From assembly GCA_023453655.1 (NCBI GenBank), contig JAEXTE010000358.1, positions 1-15,206 of the forward strand: DNA of 15,206 bases. Reading direction: 5' to 3'. A program made the translations under genes and the position numbers. Every line of letters starts with the position of its first letter. The stretch's first letter is position 1. The notes under the pieces are model-generated. The model worked only from the letters and a program-made list of their open reading frames with translations. It was not told the origin of the DNA and made no database searches. The DNA is from Pseudomonadota bacterium. GTDB taxonomy: Bacteria; Pseudomonadota; Gammaproteobacteria; Xanthomonadales; Xanthomonadaceae. Shown piece after piece: positions 11,988 to 14,213 of this stretch.

Positions 11988-12581
11988 ATGCGTTCGATCT
12001 GCGTCTACTGCGGTTCCAACAGCGGCAGCAAGCCCGTCTACAGCGAGCGCGCCATGCGCCTGGGCGAGCGCATCGCCCGCGAAGGCCTGCAGCTGGTGTA
12101 CGGCGGCGGCAATGTCGGCCTGATGGGCGTCGTCGCTGATGCGGTGCTGCAGGCCGGCGGCGAGGTGGTCGGCGTGATCCCCGAGCAGCTGGTCAACTGG
12201 GAGGTCGCGCACAAGGGCCTGACCCGGCTCGAGGTGGTCGGCTCGATGCATGAGCGCAAGATGCGCATGTTCGACCTGGCCGATGCTTTCGTCGCCCTGC
12301 CCGGCGGCTTCGGCACGCTCGACGAGATGTTCGAGATGCTGACCTGGCGCCAGCTCGGCATCGGCGACAAGCCCTGCGCGTTCCTCGACGTCGACGGTTT
12401 CTACCAGCCGCTGGTCGCGATGATCGACCACATGGTGCAGGAGCGCTTCCTGCACGCCGCGCAGCGCGCCGACCTGTGGCATGGCGAGGACATCGACGCG
12501 ATGTTCGCGTGGATGCGGAATTACGCGCCGGCGAGCGCGTCGAAGTGGCTGGACGAGAAGCACCGCAAGTCCCTGCGGTAA
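11988..12581 (+). CDS. LOG-family (TIGR00730) nucleoside 5'-monophosphate phosphoribohydrolase
   Basis: Predicted Lonely-Guy-type enzyme of 197 residues. Such proteins hydrolyse the N-glycosidic bond of nucleoside monophosphates, including cytokinin ribotides in plant-associated microbes; in other bacteria they are housekeeping or of unknown role. The N-terminus ICVYCGSNSGSKPVY is the family opening. GGGNVGLMGVVADAVL (39-54) forms the nucleotide-binding fold. MHERK (87-91) and PGGFGTLDE (105-113, with E113) are the conserved catalytic and binding motifs. No Shine-Dalgarno precedes the ATG, but the family N-terminus starts there. Oddly, the last nine codons (DEKHRKSLR) and the stop belong to the first unit of a tandem repeat array that continues downstream, so the C-terminal tail may be repeat-derived. 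Cytokinin activity cannot be claimed from sequence. Confidence 0.92.
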   Translation: MRSICVYCGSNSGSKPVYSERAMRLGERIAREGLQLVYGGGNVGLMGVVADAVLQAGGEVVGVIPEQLVNWEVAHKGLTRLEVVGSMHERKMRMFDLADAFVALPGGFGTLDEMFEMLTWRQLGIGDKPCAFLDVDGFYQPLVAMIDHMVQERFLHAAQRADLWHGEDIDAMFAWMRNYAPASASKWLDEKHRKSLR

Positions 12582-13040
12582 GTTGGCGGCGCGTGGCGGC
12601 GCGTTTGTCATCGGGGCGCCCGCGCGCTGATCGGGCGCGGACGAGAAGCACCGCAAGTCCCTGCGGTAAGTCCGGCGCGTGGCGGCGCGTTCGTCATCGG
12701 GGCGCCCGCGCGCTGATCGGGCGCGGACGGGAAATCCGCAAGTCCCTGCGATGAGCCATGGTGCGTAGCGACGCGCTTGCCATTGGGGCGCACGCGCGCT
12801 CATCGGGCGCGAACGGGAAATCCGCAAGCCCCTGCGGTGGCTTCGCGGCGCGCAGCGACGCGTTCGTGATCCGCGGCGCACCTGTGGCAACGGGGCGCGG
12901 CTCGACGCGAAACACCGCAAGTCACTGCGTAAGGTTCCGGCGCATGGCGAGGTGTTCGTCATCGGGCGCCCGTCTTCCATCCGGGCGCGGACGAGGAGCA
13001 GCGCACAACCCTGCGCGGAGCGCGAGGGCACTGCGCGGCT
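12551..13040. repeat. Tandem array of about 5.5 units of 86-90 bp, each with two hairpins
   Basis: Units begin at 12551, 12639, 12725, 12811, 12899 and 12989, giving lengths of 88, 86, 86, 88 and 90 bp plus a decayed partial sixth. Hairpin A (ACCGCA-AGTCCC-TGCGGT in units 1 and 2) has its stem and 6-nt loop kept in all six: 4 bp in units 3 and 5, 5 bp in unit 4, and in unit 6 a compensated GCGCA/TGCGC stem. Hairpin B (GCGCCCG and CGGGCGC around a 9-nt loop) is perfect in units 1, 2 and 5, where the loop of unit 5 is different. It has one mismatch in unit 3. Unit 4 has the same mismatch plus a swapped loop-closing pair (G-C to C-G). Units 1 and 2 are almost identical; the others have diverged. 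Lengths are not multiples of three, so it is not a protein repeat. There are no spacers of CRISPR type. I do not recognise the family. Confidence 0.9.
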
Positions 13041-13217: not shown

Positions 13218-14213
13218 ATGACCCTACCCGACGGCTTCAACGCCTACCGTATCCACAGCGACGACAACGGCTATCGCAGCGGCGTCGAAGCGGTGTCGCT
13301 GGACGATCTGTCCCCCGGCGAGATCGTGGTCAAGGTCGCGTTCTCCTCGGTCAACTACAAGGATGCACTGGCGGGCACCGGCAAGGGCAAGATCCTCCGC
13401 CGCTTCCCGCTGGTGGGCGGCATCGACCTGGCCGGGCACGTGGTCGCTTCCACCGATCCGAAATTCCGCGAGGGCGACCAGGTCCTGGTCACCGGTTCGG
13501 GCCTGAGCGAGACCCGCGACGGCGGCTATTCGCAGTACGCGCGCATCGAGGCGAAGTGGGCGGTGCCGCTGCCGCTGGGCCTGTCGATGCGCGAAAGCAT
13601 GGTGCTGGGCACCGCAGGCTTCACCGCCGCGCTCGCCCTGCTGCGCATGCGCGACAACCGCCAGTCGCCCGACCTCGGCCCGCTCGCGGTGACCGGCGCC
13701 ACCGGCGGCGTCGGCTCGCTGGCCGTCGACATCTTCAGCCGCGCCGGCTACACCGTGCATGCGGTCAGCGGCAAGCCCGAGCAGGCCGGCTACCTGCGTG
13801 CCATCGGCGCCAGCGAGGTGCTGGGCCGCGACGCGCTGTCCACCACGCGGCCGATGGAATCGGTGCGTTTCGGCGGCGGCCTCGACAACGTCGGCGGGCC
13901 GATGCTGACCAGCCTGCTGGCGCAGACGCGTCCCTACGGCAACGTCGCCAGCGCCGGGCTGGCCGCCAGCGCCGACCTGCCGGCCTCGGTCATGCCCTTC
14001 ATCATCCGCGGGGTCTCGCTGCTGGGCGTGGCCTCCGCGGGCACCGCGCGCGACATCCGCGACGAGATCTGGCAGCTGCTGGCCAGCGACTGGAAACCGC
14101 GTTACCTCGACCGCATCTGCACGCGCGAAACCACGCTCGAAGGCCTGCCCCAGGTGTTTTCGGACATGCTGGCGGGCGGGTCGGTGGGCAGGACCCTGGT
14201 CACACTCCCTTAG
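13218..14213 (+). CDS. acuI: AcuI/YhdH-type NADPH-dependent oxidoreductase (acrylyl-CoA reductase-like)
   Basis: Medium-chain dehydrogenase/reductase of the YhdH/AcuI quinone-oxidoreductase-like group, 331 residues. Characterised members reduce acryloyl-CoA to propionyl-CoA with NADPH, detoxifying acrylate and allowing 3-hydroxypropionate use. The N-terminal GroES-like domain has EIVVKVAFSSVNYKDALAGTGKGKILRRFPLVGGIDLAGHV (35-75), highly typical of this group. The cofactor-binding Rossmann domain starts with VTGATGGVGSLAVDIF (158-173). The catalytic and structural zinc cysteines of alcohol dehydrogenases are absent, as expected for the zinc-free branch. AGGA 6 nt upstream supports the ATG. It is flanked by the repeat array and by the receiver-protein gene 60 bp downstream. 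The exact substrate is inferred from family membership; a general quinone or enone reductase is the alternative. Confidence 0.85.
   Translation: MTLPDGFNAYRIHSDDNGYRSGVEAVSLDDLSPGEIVVKVAFSSVNYKDALAGTGKGKILRRFPLVGGIDLAGHVVASTDPKFREGDQVLVTGSGLSETRDGGYSQYARIEAKWAVPLPLGLSMRESMVLGTAGFTAALALLRMRDNRQSPDLGPLAVTGATGGVGSLAVDIFSRAGYTVHAVSGKPEQAGYLRAIGASEVLGRDALSTTRPMESVRFGGGLDNVGGPMLTSLLAQTRPYGNVASAGLAASADLPASVMPFIIRGVSLLGVASAGTARDIRDEIWQLLASDWKPRYLDRICTRETTLEGLPQVFSDMLAGGSVGRTLVTLP

Follow-up and report, generated by a model that had tools for sequence, protein, structure and literature searches.

A candidate mobile hairpin element between duplicated gene ends downstream of a LOG-family gene in the Xanthomonadaceae

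The window analysed here is a stretch of 15,206 nt from a bacterium of the Xanthomonadaceae. Using TRF, we identified a tandem array at 12551-13005 (period 86, 5.2 copies, 74% matches) between a LOG-family gene and an ORF at 13218-14213 that we take to encode an AcuI-like protein. The LOG gene carries the domain PF03641 (Possible lysine decarboxylase) and ends in ...DEKHRKSLR and a stop codon; many relatives have similar LOG C-termini of the type KW[LIM]DEK.R..LR before the stop. The initial annotation of this DNA had described a free-standing array of two-hairpin units. The tandem array is confirmed; however, it starts inside the LOG gene. Each unit is a decayed-to-intact copy of the last ~30 nt of this gene followed by ~55-60 nt of noncoding DNA, here called element E, and the array can be written as (gene end - E)5 - gene end. 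The gene-end copies start at 12551, 12639, 12725, 12811, 12904 (12899 with the full GGCT start) and 12989, yielding units of 88, 86, 86, 93 and 85 nt and a partial sixth, where 86-90 bp had been claimed. End 1 follows a T at 12546, which gives the same T^GG junction as in relatives (AAGT^GGCTGGACGAG..., with ^ marking the junction), and the covariance-model match of the first E copy overlaps the LOG gene end (Table 1). Comparing 12547-12551 with 12639, we observe that gene-end copies 2-4 and 6 are without a few post-junction nucleotides that copy 5 retains. The same short form is present at the LOG locus of a relative (L004), which suggests a common ancestry for part of the array. The nearest genome compared has 20% of the window's sampled 31-mers, and therefore the finding rests on relatives.

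Table 1. Features of the LOG locus and its array in the window.
Feature	Position	Strand	Evidence or remark
LOG-family gene, 3' end duplicated in the array	11988..12581	+	ORF; Pfam PF03641, E 4.1e-43
Gene's own 3' end (end 1)	12547..12581	+	T at 12546 precedes
Element E copy 1 (hairpins C, B)	12570..12640	+	CM R1 65.0 bits; training-set member
Gene-end copy 2	12639..12669	+	identical to gene end through stop codon
Element E copy 2	12658..12726	+	CM R1 60.0 bits; training-set member
Gene-end copy 3	12725..12754	+	out of frame, 1 base lost
Element E copy 3	12743..12812	+	CM R1 52.0 bits; training-set member
Gene-end copy 4, decayed	12811..12840	+	
Element E copy 4	12829..12900	+	CM R1 50.7 bits; training-set member
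Gene-end copy 5 (GGCTCGACGCGAAACACCGCAAGTCACTGCG...)	12899..12932	+	full GGCT start kept
Element E copy 5, most diverged	12922..12990	+	CM R1 42.6 bits; outside training set
Gene-end copy 6	12989..13020	+	no E match reported 3' of copy 6

Two hairpins per unit, A and B, had been proposed to be held by selection on their stems, and two of the underlying readings hold: unit 6 has GCGCA...TGCGC where unit 1 has CCGCA...TGCGG, and the fold of unit 5 includes hairpin B with 7 bp and a loop of 9 nt. When units were folded singly, the claimed stems were the minimum-energy structure in only some of them. Because unit 1 begins within the LOG gene, on its final codons and stop, hairpin A (CCGCAAGTCCCTGCGG) belongs to the coding sequence. 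As a conserved fold it does not stand: all five of its pairs are kept in just 24 of 98 related LOG gene ends, and the apparent compensatory change is thus weak evidence. Covariation is seen in hairpin B and in a third hairpin, C (GGCGCGT-GGCG-ACGCGCC type), the best-conserved part of the unit, which the initial annotation overlooked; hairpin A is no RNA element and stems from duplication of the host gene's 3' end.

Element E is ~60 nt long, has the two hairpins C and B and ends in a fixed GGCGC^GG, while its 5' end is not sharply defined. In an alignment of 32 copies it covers a ~71-nt stretch, in which hairpin C has a stem of up to 7 bp with a GGCG loop and hairpin B a core stem of 5 bp. The G+C content of the copies is 64-85%. 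Both stems covary, with changes on both sides at 6 of 12 pairs among 116 distinct rows, and 93.8% of cells are paired compared with 18-61% when partners are slid, in an alignment that was fitted to the model, which favours the structure, and whose related copies are non-independent. The GGCG loop is kept in 105 of the 116 sequences. GU-type cells outnumber AC-type cells in the stems (87 versus 35, cells not being independent), a mild sign that this strand folds. No match above the gathering score was found in Rfam for the window and 11 loci. We considered a small or otherwise known RNA and rejected it on this empty Rfam result and on the failure of relatives to keep hairpin A. For a tandem small-RNA array, one of three candidates initially offered, we found nothing in favour.

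Using a covariance model (E value <= 1e-3), we found E in 24 of the 149 genomes sampled in the Lysobacteraceae/Xanthomonadaceae family, a search with strict filters and 33 candidates scored per genome. By group, genus g30 has the element in 12 of 17 genomes, genus g26 in 14 of 20 and the Luteimonas-like group in 11 of 40; two genomes, G172 and G217, carry 37 and 39 copies. Searches of the order (10 of 121 genomes) and class (3 of 229) gave matches within this same family only, under strict filters and with scoring limited to 41 or 21 candidates per genome, so that weak copies elsewhere could escape. Absence of copies from related genomes had been named initially among the results that would together reduce the array to a decayed local duplication. 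The copies sought in related genomes are present there and at other genes. A decayed local duplication is excluded as the sole account. Viral spread was considered and rejected: nine IMG/VR contigs fit a pattern, none of them with a good E (best 26.1 bits).

At LOG and at six unrelated genes, a copy of the gene's 3' end stands on each side of E, and the second copy begins exactly at the 3' end of E. Altogether, a direct repeat starts at this position in 81 of 157 distinct E copies from selected loci (38 further E matches lie outside this set), versus 13 of 463 control draws; the other 76 copies are without a repeat at the threshold used. By manual reading, 13 of the 81 repeats are E-E tandems or amplified intergenic repeats and 68, arrays included, are the 3' end of the upstream gene. 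The families with clear sites are LOG, PlsB (GPAT_C), Psd, RlmD (tRNA_U5-meth_tr), a DUF2752 protein, a Peptidase_M23 (M23) protein and a ~206-aa protein. All 8 clear distinct sites in these 7 families have T^GG on the gene side, and the ~206-aa gene uses two different such sites. T precedes GG at 33.8% of positions in LOG genes (1904/5640), and the chance of 8 out of 8 is ~2e-4 if this background holds for other genes. Two more sites are degraded, with the exact junction unreadable: one at a gene that we take to be NadE-like (L160) and a second site in PlsB (L254). Exceptions to the T are A, C or G in amplified intergenic repeats of G172, G215 and G217, and a C before a weak third E (22.5 bits) inside the Psd array L261. 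Of 17 hand-picked loci, 16 have a readable duplication of 31-107 nt and one has 19 nt, these lengths being lower bounds where the ends have diverged and reaching into E at L015 and L095. The putative insert is ~110-210 nt in the pairs displayed. In every pair compared, end 1 terminates in frame at a stop codon, which at L236 lies beyond the duplication. Some second ends precede truncated E copies (L129, L256, L268-L272); at L210 the two ends are identical (69/69) and no E is seen after the second.

Several relatives carry arrays at their LOG loci with the same boundaries but with the gene-end sequence of their own species. Examples of these include L031 (2.0 copies of 92 bp at 100%), L010 and L013 (113 bp, 2.7 and 3.0 copies), L085 (105 bp, 6.3 copies) and L100 (110 bp, 2.0 copies), and one or more additional gene-end copies are found at L115, L117, L118, L129 and L130. 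A downstream gene-end copy scoring at least 19 is present in 10 of 110 LOG loci, each time directly after GGCGC; the 110 include 7 duplicates, the best match per strand was taken, the 10 loci represent 9 genomes (L001 = L031), and weaker copies such as that of L004 score below 19. A larger autonomous element between the LOG gene and its second end was rejected, as all 10 of these matches directly follow GGCGC. At most orthologous LOG loci the core motif of E is unrecognisable. Inheritance of E at LOG in genus g26 seems old and in part vertical, and at L275 E appears to have been lost by exchange between the two ends.

The RlmD gene offers a comparison of filled and empty sites. In the E-less Luteimonas-like genome G028, the gene ends FEHG-stop-C-ATG, the ATG being that of the next gene. 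In G001, the gene ends in FEPA-stop, followed by E and GGCGC^GG, and a second end then reads FEHD-stop-C-ATG, with a duplication of 48 nt and 3 mismatches. Since this second end has the native-looking junction, the first end and E are the likely insert, and the pair fits an insertion of gene end plus E. The RlmD locus of G012 is alike, with the second end stopping 3 nt before the next ATG. Among 30 RlmD loci, the next gene is 1-12 nt away in 11, none with E, and 139-198 nt away in three with E. Other E-less loci have 17-169 nt of different sequence (several 91-169 nt), and in six of the loci the next start was not found. Tight spacing is thus common, not universal.

Differences between the two ends inform on their history. 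Among 153 differing codons in 40 pairs of end 1 and end 2, 100 are synonymous and 53 are not, in non-independent pairs chosen without L203 (<70% identity) and without pairs having an unrecognised frame or an upstream base other than T. Random substitution in 2000 neutral runs gave a synonymous mean of 24% and a maximum of 36%, and one constrained plus one free copy would give ~39% by arithmetic estimate. Given this excess over the simulated mean, both copies seem to have been coding ends for some time. This seems to have come about through recombination with E-less strains, transfer of gene end plus E, or frequent contraction, which would turn the outer copy back into the gene end. At L263, the coding part shows six synonymous differences and the E part is nearly identical. 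Against constraint on the second end, several second ends are frameshifted or without a stop (L193, L008, window copies 3-4).

We think it probable that E is a mobile hairpin element that duplicates the end of its target gene on insertion and thereby keeps it intact, with the resulting direct repeats then expanding into arrays. E would be a small, non-autonomous, strand-oriented element of the Lysobacteraceae/Xanthomonadaceae family that enters by a transposition-like or template-switch-like reaction, using T^GG on the gene side and the foot of its hairpin B on the other and duplicating ~30-110 nt of target. At RlmD, gene end plus E would be the insertion. The duplicated ends would serve as direct repeats through which unequal exchange, itself an ordinary step, could expand, contract or remove E, and this could have produced the five-E array of the window. 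We infer the insertion step from the junctions and from one clean filled/empty pair. Finding T^GG and GGCGC^GG at unrelated genes, together with the RlmD pair, supports insertion over duplication alone. The same architecture with species-own LOG ends, the dispersal to 37 and 39 copies and the covariation also favour this reading; against it, a truncated E after some second ends would also be expected from tandem duplication in which the last E decayed. Also counting against it are the 76 E copies without a repeat, the apparent age and partly vertical inheritance of E at LOG in genus g26, and the junctions preceded by A, C or G. Of the three initial candidates, the one that comes closest is the mobile hairpin repeat multiplying in place, in that E is dispersed, its stems covary and other species have arrays at the matching position, and the initial interpretation is partly supported. 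More tentatively, and with some doubt, E may represent a new class of bacterial mobile element, a module of ~60 nt and two hairpins that would insert at T^GG within the 3' ends of conserved genes, make a 30-110 nt duplication that leaves the protein intact, rely on a putative host or trans-acting enzyme and move gene ends between species.

The main rival is ordinary tandem duplication, in which a resident, terminator-like conserved hairpin provokes replication slippage at each gene independently and terminal hairpins decay later. Many loci are true whole-unit arrays (L031, with 92 bp x2 at 100%, L115, L085 and L263) and some last units have a truncated E, as this reading predicts; however, it does not anticipate the same GGCGC^GG and T^GG junctions at unrelated genes. 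Nor does it suit the second RlmD end of G001, which adjoins the next gene as in E-less G028 with scant space for a deleted E, or the identical ends of L210 with no E after the second, and we regard it as unlikely. A functional RNA in the 3' UTR, a stability or termination device held in arrays by selection, could account for the covarying stems, the prevalent GGCG loop and the location of E, which in the gene-end cases lies 3' of genes and on their sense strand. Such a device is nevertheless quite improbable, as the core motif is unrecognisable at most orthologous LOG loci, E is absent from most family genomes sampled, Rfam gives no match and, by eye, no U-tract follows hairpin B.

Two other routes of movement differ from the insertion that we favour. 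In one, gene end plus E would be an att-like module, a minute integrative element that excises and integrates as a circle via a site-specific recombinase at T^GG and is carried between species with its gene end. The 100 synonymous codons among 153 that differ, as if both ends coded, perhaps in different genomes, would agree with this, as would restoration of the gene on removal of end 1 and E. The module nonetheless leaves unexplained how E gains the end of a new gene, and end 1 could equally be swapped by ordinary homologous recombination with E-less strains, making this reading rather unlikely. In the other, an RNA ending in E would be reverse-transcribed at a T^GG nick, giving target duplications of variable length. 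The fixed 3' end, the variable duplication length and the excess of GU-type over AC-type cells (again not independent) point this way, but RVT_1, the sole reverse-transcriptase family tested, shows no association with E: 3 of 19 genomes with E have a match, as do 2 of 9 without E, and neither of the E-rich genomes G172 and G217 has one. A reverse-transcribed origin is disfavoured and seems to us highly improbable.

Several known systems resemble E in part. Integrative elements that use gene 3' ends insert a module whose own 3' end takes the place of the original copy, which is displaced. E shares this likeness, but its insert is tiny (~110-210 nt) and has no integrase within. Integron attC sites and CALIN arrays are folded hairpin sites in head-to-tail arrays; the attC core GTTRRRY was found near the 3' end in 0 of 152 distinct E copies. 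Among the systems whose descriptions were consulted, the nearest is YPAL/RU-2 of Yersinia, which passages of PMC2229807 present as small (~168 bp), neither A+T-rich nor bounded by TA, with inverted repeats in its interior and target duplications of variable length (3-26 bp), its mobility being judged from empty and filled sites. Compared by that description, E differs in its longer duplications (31-107 nt in 16 of 17 loci), which include the gene 3' end. The same source, in the passages concerned, describes bacterial MITEs (Correia/NEMIS, ERIC, RUP) as non-autonomous mobile units of <200 bp with target duplications, most of them A+T-rich with terminal inverted repeats and TA ends (PMC2229807). 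Like these, E is dispersed, noncoding, <200 bp and associated with a target duplication; it differs in its internal hairpins, its 3' end GGCGC^GG in place of TA and its 64-85% G+C. REP elements of the GTAG/CGTC super-families, with their RAYT transposases, are short palindromic dispersed repeats, and the main text of the source consulted contains "duplicat" 0 times, Stenotrophomonas twice and Xanthomonas 0 times (PMC3733652). E, by contrast, combines two hairpins with a conserved 3' end, and of 152 distinct copies 26 have GTRG or CGTC within their first 24 nt. In the open-access literature, with subscription papers outside the search, no title or abstract described gene-end duplication by such a repeat, and the novelty of this type of duplication is provisional. 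Insertions within conserved genes are normally damaging, and an element that rebuilds the end of its gene would, if true, follow a different insertion strategy and account for junk-looking arrays after housekeeping genes. The fixed T^GG and GGCGC^GG junctions and the filled and empty sites give a clear handle for finding the enzyme.

Other repeats and small ORFs are found near E or near LOG. In G172 (e.g. L170, L181, L185), many of the copies read sit inside a larger palindromic repeat, ..GACGCGGTAGCGCGGGGGTA.. E ..GACGCGGAACCGCGCGATGCGCCATACCCCCGCGCTGCCGCGG.., and a palindromic composite with E seems to have been amplified in this genome. L337 (G215:C15) has nine E-like copies in ~5 kb amid arrays of another repeat (..GTAGCCCGGGTAAGCGAAGCGCACC..), and in genus g48 (L195-L198) E matches adjoin repeats of the GTAGAGCCGAGC/GCTCGGCTCTAC type, not gene-end copies. 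Downstream of LOG in several of L268-L283, E copies or their relics adjoin repeats of the GTAGGAGCGGCTTCAGCCGCGAC type, whose GTAG tag makes them REP-like. At L034, where E is faint, and L043, where E is not seen, the stretch from the LOG gene to the AcuI-like gene contains small ORFs that presumably resemble GIY-YIG nucleases and that are flanked by palindromic repeats of the CCCGGCG...CGGGA type.
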